64,000 bases of DNA, from assembly GCA_030431255.1 (NCBI GenBank), contig JAUIJL010000001.1:744001-808000 (forward strand), given 5' to 3'. The translations under genes were made by a program, and so were the position numbers. The notes below the pieces were generated by a model. That model saw nothing but the letters and a program-made list of their open reading frames with translations, searched no databases and was not told the DNA's origin. Of the stretch, positions 33,928 through 42,812 are shown one piece after another (position 1 is the first letter of the stretch; each line of letters starts with the position of its first letter). The DNA comes from Thermoanaerobaculia bacterium (GTDB lineage: Bacteria; Acidobacteriota; Thermoanaerobaculia; Multivoradales; J023).

Positions 33928-35235
33928 ATGCTCGAACGTTTCCCGATGAATACTGCCCGCCTGCATTCCGGCCTCCGGTTGCGGCCCTCCACCCCTTGGC
34001 GAGTCCTCTTGCCGACTCTGCTGATGTTGCTCGGCGGCCTGCTCACTCAGGATCCCGCCATGGCCAAGAAGGATAAGAAAAAAGACACCGTGGCGAAGAT
34101 CAGCGGTGTGGTGTCCGACATGGAGGGCAAAAAGCAGCGGGATATTCAGGTCGAGGTGGTGAGCCTCGAAGGCGGGGAAACGGTGGGGCAGGACACCACC
34201 ACCAAAAAAGGCGAATTCGAGATTGAGGTCGATGGAGCCGGTGGCAAATACGCGGTGAAATTCTCCGGTGAGGGCTTCGCCGACTTCACCGGCGAGGTGG
34301 AGCTGATCGCCGGTGAGGAGCAGAGCCTCGACGTCAAGCTGTTGAGCGCCGAAGAAGGGGTCAAGAACCAAGCCATCGCCCTCTACAACGCGGCGGCGGA
34401 AGCCCATCGCGCGAAGGATCTGGACGCGGCTTTGGCGAAATTTCAGGAGGCCGTGGCCCTCGATCCCAGCTTAGCGCCCAGCCATCTCGGGATCGCCGAC
34501 ATCCACTTGCAACAAGGCAATGTGGAAGCGGCAATCGTGGCTGCGGAGCGTTTCGTGGAAATGAAGCCGGACGACGAGCAGGGTAAGAAGGTCCTTTTCG
34601 AGGCTTATCGTCGCGGCGGTCAGCTGGATAAGGCCAAAGCCATTGCCGGTGATGTGGACGAAGCGGCGTTGAACCAAGACATGGCCATCGGCATTTATAA
34701 CGAAGGCGCCTTGGCCTCCCAACAAGGGGATTACGAAACCGCGTTGGCCAAATTCCAAGAGGCCGCCGAGCTCAATCCCGACATGGCTCAAGCCCACGCC
34801 GGAGTGGCGTCGATCCTTTACAACCAAGAGAATCTGGACGGCGCCGTTGCCGCCGCGGAGAAGGCACTGGCCATCGAGCCCGATAATCGTCAGGGTATGC
34901 GGATCAAATATCTGGTCCTCGACGCCAAAGGCCAAGTGGCCGAAGCCTTGAAGGTTTGGGATTCCTACCAAGCCCTCGATGCCGACGGCGCCATCGATCT
35001 GCTCTATCGTCGCGCGGACATGGACTTCCAAGCCGGTGATACCGCTCGGGCCCAAACCGCCCTCAAAAAGGTGATCGAGGTCAAACCCGACTTCGCTCGA
35101 GCCCACTACACCTTGGGTCTGACCTACACCGCCACCGACACGGCGAAGGCCAAAGAGCATCTGCAGAAATTCATCGAGCTCGCGCCGGACGATCCCGAGG
35201 TGCCGGCGGCGAAAGAGATCCTCGCCTACTTCTGA
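33928..35235 (+). CDS. Secreted TPR protein with regulatory-like beta domain
   Basis: A 435-residue exported protein. The signal peptide (about residues 1-46) ends at DPAMA, followed by a Lys-rich stretch KKDKKKD. A carboxypeptidase-regulatory-like beta domain (about 55-125, ISGVVSDMEGKKQRDIQVEVV) comes next. The rest is tetratricopeptide repeats, for example AEAHRAKDLDAALAKFQEAVALDPSLA and GALASQQGDYETALAKFQEAAELNPDMA. This is a protein-protein scaffold in the periplasm. AAGGAGA precedes the ATG. Its stop overlaps the start of the BtuF-like gene (TGATG). Confidence 0.85.
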   Translation: MLERFPMNTARLHSGLRLRPSTPWRVLLPTLLMLLGGLLTQDPAMAKKDKKKDTVAKISGVVSDMEGKKQRDIQVEVVSLEGGETVGQDTTTKKGEFEIEVDGAGGKYAVKFSGEGFADFTGEVELIAGEEQSLDVKLLSAEEGVKNQAIALYNAAAEAHRAKDLDAALAKFQEAVALDPSLAPSHLGIADIHLQQGNVEAAIVAAERFVEMKPDDEQGKKVLFEAYRRGGQLDKAKAIAGDVDEAALNQDMAIGIYNEGALASQQGDYETALAKFQEAAELNPDMAQAHAGVASILYNQENLDGAVAAAEKALAIEPDNRQGMRIKYLVLDAKGQVAEALKVWDSYQALDADGAIDLLYRRADMDFQAGDTARAQTALKKVIEVKPDFARAHYTLGLTYTATDTAKAKEHLQKFIELAPDDPEVPAAKEILAYF

Positions 35236-36074
35236 TGTCGGCATCCGAGCAAGGCGCCCGGCGGGTGGTGGCGCTGACCTGCTCCAACACCGAGATCGTT
35301 TGTGCATTGGGCTGTGCAGATCGGCTCGTGGGGGTCGACGATCACAGTGATTTTCCGCCGGAGGTGGTCGATCCCTTGCCCCGGGTCGGTCCCGATCTCG
35401 GGATCGACGTCGATCGAGTGGCGGCTTTGGAGCCCGATTTGGTGCTGGCGTCCTTGACCGTGCCGGGTCATGAAAAGGTGATCGAGCGACTGGAAGCGGC
35501 CGGCTTGCCCTTCATCGCTCCGCGGCCTCAATGCTTGACGGATGTCTATCGAGACATCGGGGAAATCGCGGGCTTGCTCGGGGTAGAAGCCGCGGGCCGA
35601 GATCTCGTGGCGGACATGCGGTCGCGGTTTCAAGGGCCGTCTGCCCAAGACTCCGCCGAGTCGCCGACGGAGCGACCCAAGATCGCGGTGCAGTGGTGGC
35701 CCAAGCCGGTGATCCTCCCGGGCAAGCTGAGCTGGGTGCACGATCTCATCGAGCTGGCGGGGGGCGAAAACCCGATCGGCGACGAGGCGGTGGAAAGTCG
35801 ACCGGTGACCGACGAGGAGATGCAATCCTTGGCGCCGGATGTGATCGTGCTTTCGTGGTGCGGGGTCGAGGAGCGCAAATACCGACCGGATGTGATCTAC
35901 AACAACCCGCTGTGGCAGGACGTGCCGGCGGTGCGCCATCGCCGGGTGGTATCGATCACCGAGGCCTACCTCGGCCGACCCTCGCCGCGCCTGGTGAACG
36001 GCTTCGAAGCCTTGCGTCATGTGGTGAGAGGGGCGAGAGAGGTTCCTTCTTCAGGCGCACAGTCCAGGCAGTAA
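35235..36074 (+). CDS. BtuF-like cobalamin/iron-siderophore-type substrate-binding protein without signal peptide
   Basis: A 279-residue protein of the class III periplasmic-binding fold. VVALTCSNTEIVCALGCADRLVGVDDHSDFPPEV and DRVAALEPDLVLASLTVPGHEKVIERLEAAGLP match the BtuF/FhuD layout. The C-terminal half has LAPDVIVLSWCGVEE and VPAVRHRRVVSI. No secretion signal is seen: the reading frame begins MSASEQGARRVVALT directly at the first strand, overlapping the TPR stop. Signal-less BtuF homologues are widespread and of uncertain role. No permease or ATPase gene is adjacent. The 3' end overlaps the convergent globin gene by 58 bp. Confidence 0.85.
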   Translation: MSASEQGARRVVALTCSNTEIVCALGCADRLVGVDDHSDFPPEVVDPLPRVGPDLGIDVDRVAALEPDLVLASLTVPGHEKVIERLEAAGLPFIAPRPQCLTDVYRDIGEIAGLLGVEAAGRDLVADMRSRFQGPSAQDSAESPTERPKIAVQWWPKPVILPGKLSWVHDLIELAGGENPIGDEAVESRPVTDEEMQSLAPDVIVLSWCGVEERKYRPDVIYNNPLWQDVPAVRHRRVVSITEAYLGRPSPRLVNGFEALRHVVRGAREVPSSGAQSRQ

Positions 36075-36643
36075 GTCTTTCCTGTGCGAACATGGTAGAT
36101 GACTCGGTCGCCGGCCGACACCTCACCCTGGCAGCCGTCGCAGAGGGCTCCCACCGCGATCTCAATGCTTTCGTATCCTTCTGTGGGAATGGTACGGCCA
36201 TTTACGATTCTTTTTAGGGGCTCGTCTTTGACGATGGCACCACGAAAAATCTCGTTGAGGGAGCGAATTCGGGAGGCCAGGTGAGCTGACAGACCTCGCC
36301 TCAGTAAGGTCTGTTCCAGAAGATCTTCTCGGTGCTCGAAAAGCTCATCGGAGATCACCATCCAGGCATGTGCTCGCCGCGGGTGATTGCCGAAGTAGTT
36401 GCGTTCTCCGGTCAAAATGGATCGAAGGAAGCTAAATTGCTTGTCGACGACGAATTCTTTCCGCACTCCTTCAAAGAAAGGAGCCAAGCGGTCGTCTTGA
36501 AATACCTGTGCATAGAAATCTTCAAGGGATGCCCGAAGCCCATCGCCGCGTCCAATGGCTTCCCATAGCTCGGGATCTGGTGCCAGCTTTCCACCCCGAG
36601 GGGTTGGTCGACGCTTATCTATTTTTACGTTATTGCTGGGCAT
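36017..36643 (-). CDS. Truncated-haemoglobin-like protein with C-terminal zinc-ribbon-like tail
   Basis: A 208-residue protein. Residues about 30-135 resemble a truncated globin: SLEDFYAQVFQDDRLAPFFEGV, then FLRSILTGERNYFGNHPRRAHAWMVISDELFEHREDLL with the likely proximal His in RRAHAWM. The last 45 residues add two Cys pairs, LCDGCQGEV and YCLDCAPEEG, suggesting a bound zinc or other metal. The ATG at 36643 (MPSNNVKIDKRRP) is preferred over a longer upstream reading. Globins of this type bind O2 or NO; the Cys tail may make it a redox or gas sensor. Convergent overlap of 58 bp with the BtuF-like gene. Confidence 0.75.
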   Translation of the reverse strand: MPSNNVKIDKRRPTPRGGKLAPDPELWEAIGRGDGLRASLEDFYAQVFQDDRLAPFFEGVRKEFVVDKQFSFLRSILTGERNYFGNHPRRAHAWMVISDELFEHREDLLEQTLLRRGLSAHLASRIRSLNEIFRGAIVKDEPLKRIVNGRTIPTEGYESIEIAVGALCDGCQGEVSAGDRVIYHVRTGKTYCLDCAPEEGTSLAPLTT

Positions 36644-36924
36644 TATGCATTTCTGGGGTACGTTGGCTCGGTCGATCCTGTGCGAGGCGCAAAGCCCGAT
36701 CATACTGATTCTGAGCCCAATCTGCTAAACTATGGTCCCCTTTTGGAGAGATCTCGACCAGAAATCGAGCTTCTTCACTCTGAAGTGATCGGTCTGACCG
36801 CCCCCCGTTTTGAGACCGAGGAATTCAGAGAAGCGCGGAGAGGTGCGTAGCCCTTGCGGTCGGCACGTCCTCGTCATCCGCGAAAACGGTGAGTGATCGC
36901 AGCATTTACACCAAGGAGCCTTGA

Positions 36925-37329
36925 ATGAGTCTTAATGATGCTATCCGAGATGTCGTCAACTCTGTGCCCGAATGCGTAGCCGCAGGCTTCATCGACATGA
37001 GCACAGGCATGCTGCTCGGTTATAAGACCGTAGATTCCCACCCCCAAGAAGTCATCGAGCTGCTGGCTGCCACGACTAGCGACGTCTTTCAAGGCCCGAA
37101 CATCGTCACCATCGAGAATATTTTCAAGAAGATCCGCGGCATGGAGGGCGATCCGGAGCACTACATTCGCGAGATCGTCATGTCGTCCAAAAACCTGATT
37201 CACGTGTTCATTCGCTGCAAGAATCAAGAGGATCAGGTCTTGGTGGTCGTCACCAGAATTTCCGCCAACCTCGGAATGGTGCTGACCAAATCGAGACAGC
37301 ACGTCGCGTTGGTCGAGGCTGCAGCCTAA
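36925..37329 (+). CDS. Roadblock/LC7-like small protein
   Basis: A 134-residue protein with the beta-alpha pattern of Roadblock/LC7 domains: ECVAAGFIDMSTGMLLGYKTVD, then a helix with VIELLAATTSDVFQG, and the closing strands HVFIRCKNQEDQVLVVVTRISANLGMVLTKSRQHVALVEAA. Bacterial Roadblock proteins (MglB-like) bind and regulate small Ras-like GTPases. An AAGGAG ribosome-binding site precedes the ATG. It heads a block with an ABC-phosphatase fusion and a REC-PATAN protein. No intact MglA-type GTPase gene is in the window. Confidence 0.75.
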   Translation: MSLNDAIRDVVNSVPECVAAGFIDMSTGMLLGYKTVDSHPQEVIELLAATTSDVFQGPNIVTIENIFKKIRGMEGDPEHYIREIVMSSKNLIHVFIRCKNQEDQVLVVVTRISANLGMVLTKSRQHVALVEAAA

Positions 37330-37458
37330 AACGCATCTCCTCGCCGACTCCGCGGAGCAGATCTCGGGGTCGGCGTTCGCCTTGCCGCCTACCGCCCGTC
37401 TTAAGCCTTCCTTCACTTCCATCCCATGGCCGCCACGCCTATTCCTGTTGAGGGTTTC

Positions 37459-38775
37459 ATGTCGAATTCGATCAGTGTGCGGCATCTCAGCGCCGGTTTC
37501 TCGGACAGGGTGATTCTTCGCGATGTGAGCCTGGAGGCCAAACGCGGGGAGATCGTCGGAATTCTTGGGCCTGCCGGAGTCGGGAAAAGCACGTTTCTGC
37601 GCACGCTCAGCGGTTGGAATGATCTCCTTCCGAGCTTTTGGAGCAAAGGGCAGGCGCTGCTCGACGGCGAGAACTTGCTCGATACCTCGGCGCGAGACTC
37701 GCTCCACCGGAAAGTGCCACTCCTGGCCCAGAAAAAACGGCTTTACACAGCCTCGGTGCTCGACAATTTGCTTGCTGATCTACCCGCCGACGAGGCCGTG
37801 CACCAACGGTCCGAGCAACTGGCCAAAGCGAAGAAGCTGCTACAGGAATTCGACCTTTGGACCGAAATGGAGCCCTTGCTCGATGAGGCCGTCGTATCTC
37901 TGCCGATCGGCACCCAGCGATGCATCGCCATCGCTCGTATGGTGGCGGGAGGGGCCCATTTTCTGCTCGCCGATGAGCCGCTGCGAGATATCTCAGAGCC
38001 TGAGGTTGAGCAGGTCAAAAACCTTCTGAAGAAAGCTCGTTCCCATTGCGGTGTGGTGCTCGTCACCCACAATCTCGCGATCGCCCGTTCCATTTGTGAT
38101 CGTGCTGCCCTTCTGGTGGCTGGAAAAATTGTCGAGAGTGGGCCGGCTTCTGAATTTTTCCAGAGGCCTGAGGCAGATCTCACACGTCAATTTCTCGCGA
38201 CCGGAAATTGCTGGCCGTCGGAGGTCCAGATGAGCAGCCCGGAGTGGCGAGATCCCGTCGTCGAGCCGCCGCAGGCTCAGCCCGAGCAACCAAGAAGTCT
38301 GAAGTGGATTCTGAAAGGACGCCTGGGTGGTATGCGGATGCCCGGGCTATTGGGCCCGTTGGATGCAGACCTTGCAAGCCTTCAAAGATTGGGCTGCAGG
38401 GCTTTGATCAGCCTCCGCTCCGAAGAGCGGGTCGAGCAAAGCACGTTGTCGGCATACGGTATCGAAGGGCTCCATTTTCCGATCGTCGACATGGGCACCC
38501 CGAGCCCTGAGCTCGCACTAGAGATTTGCCGAACCATCGAGCGCTTTCTTCAAAGGGATAGGCCTACGGTCATCCACTGCAAAGCCGGCCTCGGCAGAAC
38601 CGGCACGATGCTCGCTTGCTTCTTGGTGTACCGGAAGTCGACAGCCGTCGCGGCCGTCGAGTCTGTGCGCGCCGTCAATCCGCACTACATTCAGAATCAG
38701 GAACAGGTGGAGTTTGTCGGCGTATTCGAACGCTTCTTGGAGGGCTATGGCCTATCGGCCGATGGAATTGCCTGA
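37459..38775 (+). CDS. ABC ATPase fused to dual-specificity protein phosphatase
   Basis: A 438-residue fusion. Residues 5 to about 250 are an ABC ATPase resembling PstB: Walker A GPAGVGKST (about 37-45), Q-loop LLAQKKRLYTASVLDNL, Walker B FLLADEP and switch His VLVTHNLA. The signature LSGGQ is degenerate (SLPIGTQRCIAIARM). Residues about 285-430 are a protein tyrosine/dual-specificity phosphatase with the P-loop HCKAGLGRTG (nucleophile C374, R380) and a general-acid Asp candidate in IVDMGTPSPE. No permease gene is adjacent. The start at 37459 has GAGGG upstream; an ATG at 37426 is an alternative. Base composition looks lower in GC than the bulk. The 3' end overlaps the next gene by 24 bp. Confidence 0.85.
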   Translation: MSNSISVRHLSAGFSDRVILRDVSLEAKRGEIVGILGPAGVGKSTFLRTLSGWNDLLPSFWSKGQALLDGENLLDTSARDSLHRKVPLLAQKKRLYTASVLDNLLADLPADEAVHQRSEQLAKAKKLLQEFDLWTEMEPLLDEAVVSLPIGTQRCIAIARMVAGGAHFLLADEPLRDISEPEVEQVKNLLKKARSHCGVVLVTHNLAIARSICDRAALLVAGKIVESGPASEFFQRPEADLTRQFLATGNCWPSEVQMSSPEWRDPVVEPPQAQPEQPRSLKWILKGRLGGMRMPGLLGPLDADLASLQRLGCRALISLRSEERVEQSTLSAYGIEGLHFPIVDMGTPSPELALEICRTIERFLQRDRPTVIHCKAGLGRTGTMLACFLVYRKSTAVAAVESVRAVNPHYIQNQEQVEFVGVFERFLEGYGLSADGIA

Positions 38776-40269
38776 AAGCAGGTCGGTCAGCTCTTGCAAG
38801 TCCGTGGGCGGGGATTGGGCAAGAGCCCATTTGTCATCGCTGGAGGCCACGGCATTCGTCAAGAGATCCTGTTGTGTGGTTCCGGGCACAACCACCACGC
38901 CTCTAGTAAGAACCGGGGCCTCGTCGAAGCGCTCGACCAAATTGGCTATCTCGGCGCCAAATTGGCGGTCGGTCAAGAAAACCAAGATGCCCGAGGCGAG
39001 GTTTATCAGCGCTTGCCCCTGATTGCCCCGTCGGCGCTCGTCGAGGGGCTGCAAATTGAGCAGGATTTCGGACTCACGATGGCGCAATCGTACCGTTCCC
39101 CTTTGCAAGGATTCCAGCTGTGGGAATAGCCTGTCGCGACTAGCGGTCAAGTAGGGGTCCGGGATCTCCATCAATAATTTGAGCAAGCTCTCCCAGGCAC
39201 CATTTTGGTAGAGGATCAGCAGGTGAATGGAAGACCTGGAGCCGCCGCTGGACATTGATTGGAAGAGGTTTGAGATGGGATCCGAAGGATTCTTCGTTGT
39301 TGAAGACGAATCTGCAGATTCGTCCTGGGCTTCTTCCACTTTGGCAGCCGCCAACCCGAGAGCTTCACCTTCCAGCAAGATGACGACTGTCAACGAGATC
39401 CGAATCGGGGCGGCAAGACCTTGAGATATCATTTGCCGCAGAGTGGTCGCCTGCAGTTTCGAGACGGCTGAATGGACTTGCCTGAGTGGTAAGGAGCTGT
39501 GGGACTGGGCCAGCTCTTCATTCAGCGCCCCCTTGGTTTCCAGGGGTTGATCGAGACTGGGTAGCAGGGTCTGCCGTCGCGCCAGCTCATCTTCAAAGTA
39601 TGCGAGGTCTAATAGGGATGTCTGTAGGCTGATGGCCGTTTCCAGGGGGTTGGTAGGTTCAGGCAGCTCTGACTCATTGAAATGAAACCGACCTTCCTCT
39701 AGCCCCAATAAGTGATAGACCGCATCCCAGCTTCGAAGTTTCCCCGCCTGAGCTGCGACGACTGCCCCTTGGTCGAAGAAGATCTTCGATTCGCTCTCTT
39801 CCTCCATCACCACAAGCATGCCGGTCTTCTGAGAGTCGGAGAGGTTTTGCAGAACCTGCGGCAGGGAAAGGCTGCTTAAGTCACCCTCGATCTGCGCCCG
39901 CCTCTTCCGCAACATCAAGCGCCCGACTCGAGCGGCCAGCTCGTCATGATCCGCGGGTTTGACCAGATAATCGTCGGCGCCTTCTCGAATGGCAAGGACT
40001 CGGTCTTTCGTCTCGTCCATCGCAGAGAGCACAAGGACCGGTAAGTCCGCCAAGGTTGCCGTCGCCCTTACCTTTCTTAGAAGCTCCAAGCCACTGACAT
40101 TGGGCATCATCACATCCACGACCATGGCATCGATGGTTCGGCTCTTGAGCGTTTCAAGGGCTTGAGCTGCCCCGGAGCTACAAATGACCTCGTATCCTGC
40201 TGCCTCTAAGGCCGTACCGACGACGACACGAACATCGTCGCTGTCGTCAACTAAAAGAACAGTGTTCAC
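38752..40269 (-). CDS. Response regulator with PATAN (DUF4388) domain and GTPase-like C-terminus
   Basis: A 505-residue protein. Residues 1-125 form a receiver with VLLVDDSDDVRVVV, the phospho-Asp in AMVVDVMMPNVSGLELL and the Lys in DDYLVKPADHDEL. A PATAN/DUF4388 domain follows (about 135-260: QIEGDLSSLSLPQVLQNLSDSQKTGMLVV, IFFDQGAVVAAQAGKL). The C-terminal third (about 360-505) has alternating strands such as SEILLNLQPLDERR and GILVFLTDRQFGAEIANLVERF. It is faintly like a Ras-type GTPase that has lost its nucleotide motifs; that reading is tentative. GTG start. PATAN proteins often act with Roadblock proteins and kinases in surface behaviour, which fits the neighbours. Confidence 0.8.
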   Translation of the reverse strand: MNTVLLVDDSDDVRVVVGTALEAAGYEVICSSGAAQALETLKSRTIDAMVVDVMMPNVSGLELLRKVRATATLADLPVLVLSAMDETKDRVLAIREGADDYLVKPADHDELAARVGRLMLRKRRAQIEGDLSSLSLPQVLQNLSDSQKTGMLVVMEEESESKIFFDQGAVVAAQAGKLRSWDAVYHLLGLEEGRFHFNESELPEPTNPLETAISLQTSLLDLAYFEDELARRQTLLPSLDQPLETKGALNEELAQSHSSLPLRQVHSAVSKLQATTLRQMISQGLAAPIRISLTVVILLEGEALGLAAAKVEEAQDESADSSSTTKNPSDPISNLFQSMSSGGSRSSIHLLILYQNGAWESLLKLLMEIPDPYLTASRDRLFPQLESLQRGTVRLRHRESEILLNLQPLDERRRGNQGQALINLASGILVFLTDRQFGAEIANLVERFDEAPVLTRGVVVVPGTTQQDLLTNAVASSDDKWALAQSPPTDLQELTDLLSGNSIGR

Positions 40270-40613: not shown

Positions 40614-42812
40614 ATGCACAGCCGCCTCTTAGAATCGCGATACGAAATTCTGCAACCCCTACACGATGACGGTTTCGAGGCGGATTTTTTGGTCCGCCAC
40701 CGGCAGCTGGGTGAGACCTGCCGGGTCAAAATCCGGCCCCACGGTTTGGAAGATCCGACTCGTCGAGCCTTCTACGATCGACATCTACCTTGGTTCACCC
40801 GGCTGAAACATCCGGGCATCCTGCCGGTCTACGACGTGCATGTGGATGACCCCACGTGGGCCGTCTTGGAAATGAAAGGTGCCAAAGGGCCGACCCTCGA
40901 TACCTTGATGGTGGATGCCAGCTTCCAACGCACCGGCGCGGCCCTGCCGGTGCCGACCGCGCTCCAGCTGGCGGACCAAGCCCTCGAAGCGGTGGCCTAC
41001 CTGCACGGCGAAGGTTGGGCCCACGGCTCGCTGGCGCCGGATCGATTCCTGCTCACCCGTGACGGCGCCGAGGCGGAGCCGCGTCTACAGCTGGCGGATC
41101 CGGGATTTGCGCGATTGGTGGGCGCGTCGGAGCGCACCACCGCCGGCGGGCTGCTGATGCATAAGTTGCGCTATTCGCCGCCGGAGCAATTTCTCGGTGA
41201 GGCGACGGACGCGACGGTCGGCGGCGACATCTACATCTTGGGGCTCTTGCTTTATGAGCTGCTGACCGGCCGGTATCCCGTGGCCGGCGACCACCCGACC
41301 TCGCTCGCCGCGGGGCATCTCCTGCGTCCGATCTTGCCGTTCAACGAAAGCGATGCCGAGGGACGGGTGCCGGCCGGAGTGCGCCGGGCGGTCGAGCGTT
41401 GTTTGGCGAAGAAACCGGAAGAACGTTTTGCCGACGTCGTCGGATTGAGAAAGGCTCTGAGTGAGGCCCGTCCGCCTTCACCGGCGACGGAAAAGCAGGT
41501 GATCGATCTTTGGCTGGAAGACGAGCCGCCGGGCCCGCAATCGGCCGCGACCGCCGACTTCAGCACCCGCGATCTTACGGAGCTGGAGCGGCGGGCCAAG
41601 TCTCGACATCTATTGGATCAAGCCAAGCTGGCGCTGGCGAGTGAGGACCACGCCGGAGCGCGTCGGCTGTTGCGGGAAGCCCAGAGCATCGCGCCCGACG
41701 ATCCCCAGGTGGCTCGGCTGCTGCGGGAGGTGGAGAAGGCTACCCGGGAGCGTCAGCTGCAGGAAGAGCGCAATCGGCAGGTTTTGAAGGTGAAGGCCGA
41801 GGTCGAGGATCTGTTGGCCGCCGGCGACTGGCGCTCGGCTCGCGGCATGGTGGTTTCGGCCGTGGAGCGGTTGGGGGGAGGCCCACGGCTGCGAGAGCTC
41901 CGTCAAAAAATTGACGAAGCCGAGAAGCGGGATCTCGAAACCCAACCCCAAACGTCTTTGGGCACAAGCTCCGCTCTCCACGTCAATGATTTGGTGGAGC
42001 GGGCCCGTCAGCTCTCCCAAACCGAGGATTTGGAGCGCGCTCAAGAGGCCCTCGGTCAAGCCTTGGAGCTGGACCCCACCCACGCCGCGGCGCGCACCCT
42101 CTCCGAGTCGGTGAAGGCGCTAGTGGAGCTGCGTCAAGGGGAAAATCAACGGCAAGAGAACCTTTTGCAAACCACCCAATCGATTCGCCGTTTGTTGGAG
42201 AAGAACGATCCCGGCGGTGCCATGGCCCAGCTACAAAAGGCCGTGGCACGACACGGCGACCGTCGAGACTTGCAGGAGCTGAGGTACCAAATCGCCGAGG
42301 CATTCCTCAACGCCGATCTGGGACGCGAGCCTCTGCCACCATCTCCTTCACTGCCACCGTCTCCTTCTTTGCCACCGTCCCCTTCATTGCCGCCTTCGCC
42401 GGATCTTCCGGTATCGGCATCGCCGAGGTCCACGTCAGAGGTCGAGCCGCAGGGGGCTGCGCCGCCTCCGTCGGGCAGAGCCTCGGACGGCTCGTCGGAA
42501 GGTTCCTACGACTCCCAGGGTATGTCGGTCGACGAGCTGCCTCTGGTGGGATCCGGACCGATGAGCCCCCCCGAGAACCTCGTCCCTCAGCCCTCGGTGG
42601 TCCTCACCCGGGAACCGGCATTGCCGCACTGGCGCTGGTGGTTGTTGATCGCTCTGCTCATGGTTTTGGTGGCTATGTTGGGGAATTGGCTGGCGTCCAG
42701 GGGCTCCCAGCGGCAGGGGGAAGAGCCCGCTCAGCCGGTGGCCACCGAGGATGTCCGTTTTACCGCCGAGGCGGTAGCAGCCGGAGCTCCGACTTTCCGG
42801 TACAATCGATAA
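40614..42812 (+). CDS. Membrane-anchored Ser/Thr pseudokinase with TPR-like repeats
   Basis: A 732-residue protein. Residues 8 to about 285 have a protein-kinase fold (YLHGEGWAHGSLAPDRFLL, HKLRYSPPEQFLG, DIYILGLLLYELLTGRYPV). The catalytic loop HRDLKPxN reads HGSLAPDR (H137, S139), so the catalytic Asp is lost. DFG is DPG (D162), the glycine loop is absent (LHDDGFEADFLV), while Lys39 is kept. Helical TPR-like repeats follow (about 320-560), then a Pro-rich linker encoded by an 18-bp tandem repeat, and a single TM helix near the C-terminus (WRWWLLIALLMVLVAMLGNWL). It is probably a scaffold rather than an active kinase. Monocistronic or with the following hydrolase-OsmC gene 63 nt downstream. 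Confidence 0.85.
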   Translation: MHSRLLESRYEILQPLHDDGFEADFLVRHRQLGETCRVKIRPHGLEDPTRRAFYDRHLPWFTRLKHPGILPVYDVHVDDPTWAVLEMKGAKGPTLDTLMVDASFQRTGAALPVPTALQLADQALEAVAYLHGEGWAHGSLAPDRFLLTRDGAEAEPRLQLADPGFARLVGASERTTAGGLLMHKLRYSPPEQFLGEATDATVGGDIYILGLLLYELLTGRYPVAGDHPTSLAAGHLLRPILPFNESDAEGRVPAGVRRAVERCLAKKPEERFADVVGLRKALSEARPPSPATEKQVIDLWLEDEPPGPQSAATADFSTRDLTELERRAKSRHLLDQAKLALASEDHAGARRLLREAQSIAPDDPQVARLLREVEKATRERQLQEERNRQVLKVKAEVEDLLAAGDWRSARGMVVSAVERLGGGPRLRELRQKIDEAEKRDLETQPQTSLGTSSALHVNDLVERARQLSQTEDLERAQEALGQALELDPTHAAARTLSESVKALVELRQGENQRQENLLQTTQSIRRLLEKNDPGGAMAQLQKAVARHGDRRDLQELRYQIAEAFLNADLGREPLPPSPSLPPSPSLPPSPSLPPSPDLPVSASPRSTSEVEPQGAAPPPSGRASDGSSEGSYDSQGMSVDELPLVGSGPMSPPENLVPQPSVVLTREPALPHWRWWLLIALLMVLVAMLGNWLASRGSQRQGEEPAQPVATEDVRFTAEAVAAGAPTFRYNR
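42333..42404 (+). repeat. 18-bp tandem repeat, four units, coding for LPPSPS linker
   Basis: Four consecutive 18-bp units encode LPPSPS three times and LPPSPD once. They differ mainly at third positions (CCA/CCG, TCT/TCC), so this is an ageing in-frame minisatellite forming an extended Pro/Ser linker between the TPR-like region and the membrane helix of the pseudokinase. Confidence 0.85.

Follow-up and report, generated by a model that had tools for sequence, protein, structure and literature searches.

The window, by which we mean the whole 64,000-nucleotide stretch of Thermoanaerobaculia DNA that was analysed, carries an open reading frame that joins an ABC ATPase to a dual-specificity phosphatase (DSP). 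Directly upstream lies a small gene that we call rb, and the pair is flanked by a globin gene and a response regulator gene. The genes, domains and motifs are as follows.

36017..36703, minus strand: globin, truncated-haemoglobin type, divergent, its C-terminal tail reading CxxC...CxxC (Bac_globin, 2e-8)
36925..37329, plus strand: rb, predicted Roadblock/LC7-fold (MglB-like) protein of 134 aa, directly upstream of the fusion
37459..38775, plus strand: ABC ATPase-DSP fusion, a single uninterrupted reading frame of 438 aa
37459..38244, plus strand: PstB-like ABC ATPase domain, residues 1-262 (Pfam ABC_tran, TIGR00972 and fold match)
37567..37593, plus strand: Walker A, GPAGVGKST, residues 37-45
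37900..37920, plus strand: degenerate ABC signature, LPIGTQR in place of LSGGQ, residues 148-154
37957..37983, plus strand: Walker B, HFLLADEPL, with catalytic Glu173 (sequence and alignment)
38068..38070, plus strand: switch His204, in VTHN (sequence and alignment)
38296..38757, plus strand: DSP domain, DUSP23-like, residues 280-433 (Pfam and solved-chain matches)
38488..38490, plus strand: Asp344, in PIVDMG, likely general acid, invariant in two alignments
38575..38604, plus strand: phosphatase P-loop, HCKAGLGRTG, residues 373-382
38752..40269, minus strand: response regulator with DUF4388, convergent, overlapping the fusion end by 24 bases

The ABC ATPase-phosphatase fusion and its relatives

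The fusion starts at the ATG at 37459, with GAGGG four bases upstream of it, and an alternative in-frame ATG lies at 37426. Pfam models recognise both halves, with ABC_tran at 1.7e-20 over residues 20-175, Tc-R-P DSP-PTPase at 1.2e-23 over residues 291-391 and DSPc at 2.1e-9 over residues 306-418. The closest ABC family model is that of PstB (TIGR00972, 3e-45), although the score of 154.5 bits lies below the model cut-off of 343.2. A structure predicted from an alignment of the window protein with 33 of 38 non-redundant fusions of up to 480 aa reached a mean pLDDT of 91.9 and a pTM of 0.82, values that speak for the domain folds and not for the relative placement of the domains. Its best fold match was Escherichia coli PstB (9k3x_C; Z 28.3, rmsd 2.0, 245 residues aligned, 28% identity); the list of matches was filled by ABC chains and hence bears on the ABC half, not on the DSP half. 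Among solved chains the phosphatase domain matched the DUSP23-type structures 4erc and 2img with E values of about 3e-26, and its top match, 25xa (1.7e-42), is labelled merely as a dual specificity phosphatase family protein. The role of Asp344 as general acid is one that we assume from DSP chemistry. The motifs, Pfam matches, TIGR00972 and the fold comparison thus confirm the two domains that an earlier sequence-only reading had described, namely a PstB-like ATPase with intact Walker motifs and a degenerate signature, and a fused phosphatase with an intact HCKAGLGRTG.

That reading did not know the domain pair and had named a sequencing error joining two genes as one way in which it could fail. 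A protein search of 59 genomes, the window's own and related ones, found full-length fusions in three (G000, which is the window's, G002 and G027), the two homologues sharing 57% and 45% identity with the window protein. In G003, G006, G026, G018 and G031 (two copies) the two domains come from neighbouring genes of their own, the ABC gene preceding the DSP gene. When public genomes were scanned with the phosphatase domain, 218 relatives were confirmed, and the counts given from here on use the best 80 of these 218. ABC and DSP were fused in 65 of these 80 loci, where fused means that an ABC profile matches over more than 40 residues in the reading frame that encodes the DSP; they were split and adjacent in 11, and four loci lacked an ABC gene. 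Three of the four (L067, L112 and L115) start at contig ends, which leaves L102 as the sole clear lone DSP. The 80 loci are not all from separate assemblies (L056 and L057, for example, share one, as do L104 and L108), and the set partly repeats records of genomes G002, G003, G006, G026, G027 and G031. Because full-length homologues occur in other genomes and most of the 65 fused loci come from separate assemblies, a joining error is ruled out, and the unfamiliar pair turns out to be a recurrent one.

The loci fall into seven named phyla, with Pseudomonadota contributing 48, Myxococcota 14, Acidobacteriota 8, Planctomycetota 4, Nitrospirota 3, and Gemmatimonadota and Bacteroidota one each; one locus is unassigned. 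In a tree built on few columns (148), which we used only to ask how split and fused rows cluster, 10 of the 11 split rows formed one cross-phylum group with an SH-aLRT of 99. The gene set is patchy among bacteria yet conserved and tight. One acidobacterial genome (G031) holds two tandem rb-ABC-DSP sets on a single contig (L036 and L096).

Non-coding DNA around the fusion was also inspected. A GC-rich hairpin that has no T run, between rb and the fusion (37342-37375), was rejected as a regulatory element, its folding z-score being just -1.02. The promoter and terminator scan stayed at chance level, and a DNA alignment of upstream regions was uninformative.

rb and the recurrent neighbours of the fusion

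The rb protein has no Pfam or NCBIfam match at E <= 0.01, Robl_LC7 included, and a sequence search of the PDB with rb returned a best E value of 0.28. A model predicted from a 57-row alignment (the window and 56 of 67 sequences) reached a pLDDT of 92.9 and shows the roadblock order of secondary structure, alpha-beta-beta-alpha-beta-beta-beta-alpha. Its best fold match was MglB (6hjm_D; Z 16.1, rmsd 2.1, 117 of 134 residues aligned), followed by other Roadblock/LC7 chains. A profile comparison with one classical roadblock was weak, aligning just 32 columns with a probability of 16%. Since Robl_LC7 does not match and the profile comparison is weak, we speak of a predicted roadblock-fold protein and not of a Robl_LC7 member, an assignment carried by the fold comparison.

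A relative of rb, about 135 aa long, lies near the DSP in 73 of the 80 loci, on the same strand in all 73 and within 300 nt, domain to domain, in 57. The seven loci that lack a nearby rb include some on short contigs. For a reverse test, an even draw of genomes was searched with rb alone, which was found in 5 of 229 genomes of the class of Marinobacter guineae (G072 itself counted) and in 3 of 297 genomes of the window's phylum (its own genome counted). Six of the rb loci were new. All five with strong matches (4e-63 to 4e-66) have ABC and DSP in one reading frame, and the sixth, holding a weaker relative (5e-31), has no ABC-DSP on the fetched stretch. At L155 the single-frame ABC-DSP is 2.7 kb from rb. 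None of the stretches examined around weaker rb relatives (L143-L146, L148 and L156, in G006, G026, G027, G005, G000 and G367) held an ABC-DSP. In G010 (L142) rb is one gene away from an ABC gene, with helical and PAS proteins alongside and no DSP, and in Candidatus Uabimicrobium the DSP is itself fused to an rb domain (L092, 7983-8894); taken together, these two cases connect rb to both halves of the fusion. Distant rb relatives occur on five Ruegeria plasmids, and in both examined (L158 and L159) they sit beside genes of the dynamin family, another P-loop NTPase family, in gene rows that also hold a Ser/Thr protein kinase gene.

Other neighbours recur as well. They were counted within 5 kb with profiles built from the same 80 loci, many of them short contigs, so that the following counts are lower bounds and are not independent. 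A globin domain is present in 42 of the 80 loci, about half (L089 not counted), and also in the window. Thirty-five loci have classical roadblocks and 32 have Ras-like GTPases; a family of 212-217 aa proteins that lacks a Pfam match was seen at 31 (for example L070 5964-6617, 217 aa) and a helical protein at seven. This last protein, 350-393 aa long, helical-looking and devoid of a significant Pfam match, accompanies mainly the split version of the pair (examples are L033 7033-8214, L035 6295-7458, L036 2822-3967 and L037 119-1171). In both L063 and L070 a member of the 212-217 aa family is encoded upstream of the small GTPase gene. In L063, from Marinobacter guineae, the order is 212-aa protein, GTPase, ABC-DSP, rb, roadblock, ferredoxin-globin and roadblock.

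The window globin belongs to the family that recurs beside the fusion, as judged by profile matches of 9.4e-81 and, for the globin domain alone, 7.2e-52. It aligns with HbN (1idr) at 5.3e-7 over residues 45-123, His to His, and on this alignment of the proximal His we classify it as a group 1 truncated haemoglobin. The aligned His is presumably the haem ligand. The DUF4388 response regulator is likely part of the module as well, because it is convergent in the window and also in G002, where it nearly abuts the fusion end, and because response regulator-DUF4388 proteins ending in an rb domain occur on the module loci L044, L068, L084 and L155. PAS proteins with the sequence NCRFLQG, which we take to be the LOV photoreceptor motif, were seen after the DSP gene in G003 (L033 9479-10282) and after the ABC gene in G010 (L142 10184-11038), hinting that blue light may take over the input role of the globin. 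The window also has, at 40614-42812 and 1.8 kb from the fusion, a protein kinase-like gene whose product carries TPR repeats, and kinase-like genes were recognised by eye on L092 and L142.

The conserved association with rb, the predicted roadblock fold and the recurrence of globins, GTPases and classical roadblocks are new here; the sequence-only reading had mentioned neither rb nor the globin as partners of the fusion in the window. The reading that we prefer, and to which we give about an even chance, is that the fusion is the output part of a cytoplasmic signalling module and not a transporter subunit: a roadblock protein would control the ABC ATPase, which would gate the phosphatase through its nucleotide state. 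The main alternative follows the example of MglA/MglB: Ras-like GTPases would be the targets of rb and of the classical roadblocks, and ABC-DSP would be a downstream effector under its own control. MglB is the nearest fold to rb, and the frequency of GTPases and classical roadblocks at the loci agrees with such an account. So does the window's genome, which contains the usual GTPase and roadblock pair separately from the fusion: far away, on contig C3, an MglA-like GTPase gene adjoins a Robl_LC7 gene (L147, 6363-6947 and 6960-7511), and on contig C29 a second rb domain, on a response regulator-DUF4388 protein, is found near an Arf-like GTPase (L148, 7724-8944 and 11877-12563). The window rb could therefore serve a GTPase in trans. 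However, if rb were the partner of a GTPase, its closer tie to ABC-DSP would be less well explained. Every one of the 32 GTPase loci holds a classical roadblock together with rb, whereas such a GTPase is missing within 5 kb at 41 of the 73 rb loci. These counts suggest that the GTPase has the classical roadblock as its partner, and that rb serves something else and goes with ABC-DSP. Neighbour profiles detect no small GTPase close to the window fusion. Searching the genome of the window with one GTPase from a Pseudomonadota locus gave no match either, but this search is weak, given that a GTPase profile does find the L147 GTPase at 5e-8. We consider control of GTPases by rb possible but rather unlikely.

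Motif conservation and transport context

In ABC dimers each ATP site is completed by the LSGGQ motif of the opposite subunit. In the window the corresponding stretch reads SLPIGTQ, and we examined the relatives in a conservation alignment of 77 rows, four of them without a readable signature and six without an aligned Walker A. LSGGQ is found in none of the 73 readable rows of the family, whereas every aligned row keeps the Walker A Lys (71 rows), the Walker B Asp-Glu (76 rows) and the switch His (76 rows). Among the six rows that lack an aligned Walker A, the motif is present by pattern in L047, L068 and L084 and lies in a separate upstream reading frame in L086, while L048 and L051 begin near contig starts. 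On the phosphatase side, the P-loop pattern HCx5R[TS] occurs in all 80 loci, and the upstream Asp was located by pattern in 59 rows and by eye in 20 of the 21 others, L106 being the row that lacks it. As a control we inspected 24 other ABC ATPases of the relatives on both strands, and 19 carry SGG at the signature position. The five exceptions (LSVGQ, LSLEE and three LSLEQ) indicate that signature loss is not peculiar to the ABC-DSP family. Changed signatures of the LSLEE or LSLEQ type were also seen in other ABC ATPases of relatives L022, L025, L026 and L028.

Across the aligned rows, loss of LSGGQ with retention of the hydrolysis residues is a family-wide trait. The pattern fits an ATPase that still binds ATP, and perhaps hydrolyses it, without the standard symmetric closure. 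Were the ABC domain instead a passive scaffold or dimerisation unit, with a phosphatase that is constitutive or regulated by partners only, the lost signature would be readily understood. A mere scaffold would not need hydrolysis residues, however, and the invariance of the Walker A Lys, the Walker B Asp-Glu and the switch His wherever they are aligned makes a purely passive role improbable in our view.

The sequence-only reading had further noted that no permease gene is adjacent, and had named a transport role in many annotated examples as grounds for abandoning its proposal. A simple hydrophobicity scan of reading frames of at least 100 aa starting between 27 and 48 kb of the window found no permease-like frame near the fusion; the sole frame with at least three hydrophobic stretches encodes a succinate dehydrogenase cytochrome subunit. 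The same kind of scan, combined with inspection by eye, revealed no ABC permease within 2 kb of any of the 80 loci. Six loci have a reading frame with at least four hydrophobic segments in that range, and by eye these appear to encode respiratory-complex, prepilin-peptidase, P-type ATPase and other membrane proteins. The genome context of the homologues is therefore in keeping with that observation, and it offers no transport-linked example. A Peripla_BP_2 protein encoded at 35235-36074 was considered as a transport partner and rejected, as no such gene was spotted by eye in the G002 region or appeared among the recurrent neighbour clusters listed. By eye, the N-terminus of this reading frame seems to be devoid of a signal peptide.

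These observations bear on whether the fusion could be an orphan PstB-like transporter ATPase, with its permease elsewhere and the phosphatase as an accessory. The resemblance to PstB, closest in both sequence and fold, is what commends such a role, but the score far under the PstB cut-off, the family-wide absence of LSGGQ, the lack of a permease beside the loci and recurrent partners of signalling type together make it very improbable. A toxin, anti-phage or conflict system, brought to mind by the best Pfam model (Tc-R-P), which is named for polymorphic toxin systems, is hardly credible. Where PADLOC models match, their best stretches fall within the ABC domain, and none matches rb, the globin, the GTPase or the 212-aa neighbour. 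Searches of phages with the A. junii rb and of PHROGs with the window rb gave no match, and no toxin- or immunity-like gene appears among the Pfam-scanned recurrent neighbour clusters, several of which have no Pfam match.

A proposed roadblock-regulated switch

For the ABC-DSP fusion, a role as a signalling switch is more probable than one in transport. The sequence-only reading had supposed a switch that gates the phosphatase and does not drive transport; the neighbourhoods of the 80 loci support signalling without a permease, and the gating itself we still infer. In our preferred mechanism, that of the roadblock-controlled ATPase, an rb dimer would bind the PstB-like ABC domain and determine which nucleotide state it adopts. 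Given that Lys, Glu and His are kept but no LSGGQ remains to act in trans, we propose that the ATPase would deliver no power stroke and would instead work as a slow ATP switch or a one-sided dimer. Its nucleotide state would then expose or position the fused phosphatase, which may dephosphorylate Ser/Thr/Tyr or other phospho-ester targets. The sensor that supplies the input would be exchangeable. In the window and in many Pseudomonadota this would be the globin, often with a 2Fe-2S ferredoxin and presumably sensing a ligand of its haem, and it may be a PAS/LOV-like protein in some relatives and response regulators in others. Small GTPases and classical roadblocks would form an added layer in Pseudomonadota.

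Several known systems resemble parts of this arrangement. The fusion has the ABC fold in common with PstB, the ATPase of the PstSCAB phosphate importer, but differs from it in the missing LSGGQ, the attached phosphatase, the sub-cut-off score and the absence of a permease seen nearby. DUSP23/VHZ-like phosphatases are the nearest specifically named solved relatives of the other half; they are stand-alone proteins, whereas the window phosphatase is fused to an ABC domain. As in MglA/MglB, a (predicted) roadblock-fold protein stands beside a P-loop NTPase, in the window also with a response regulator, yet the constant NTPase here is an ABC ATPase with a phosphatase and not a Ras-like GTPase, and rb has no Robl_LC7 match. 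To our knowledge, the characterised bacterial roadblock cases concern small GTPases. The conservons of Streptomyces (CvnA-D) are likewise compact sensor-roadblock-NTPase gene sets, but they employ a histidine kinase and a small GTPase, and the word phosphatase is absent from the main text of the article concerned (PMC4316618). HGbRL of Methylacidiphilum joins a haem globin to Roadblock/LC7 in one sensor; in contrast to the module it is a single fused protein, reported from that genus alone, and the parts of the article consulted describe no ABC or phosphatase partner (PMC4476040). We recognised no account of ABC-DSP fusions, or of the whole combination, in the open-licence literature searched; an earlier mention elsewhere is possible.

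It is conceivable, at somewhat less than an even chance, that these genes represent a separate signal-transduction class in which an ABC ATPase that has lost its transport signature serves as a roadblock-regulated switch for a covalently attached phosphatase. The sensors, for gas, redox, light or phosphorelay signals, would be interchangeable. Taken singly, ABC ATPases, DSPs, roadblocks and globins are familiar proteins, and there is a fair chance that the module merits a class of its own. With members in seven phyla, it suggests a route from haem-based sensing to dephosphorylation, and with rb it adds a protein family that has no Pfam match. Roadblock proteins were long ago proposed as general regulators of NTPases (Koonin and Aravind 2000, as cited in PMC4316618), and the module is a compact and recurrent case in which roadblock regulation of NTPases beyond GTPases can be tested directly. 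If the genes do form such a separate class, roadblock regulation would extend from GTPases to ABC ATPases.
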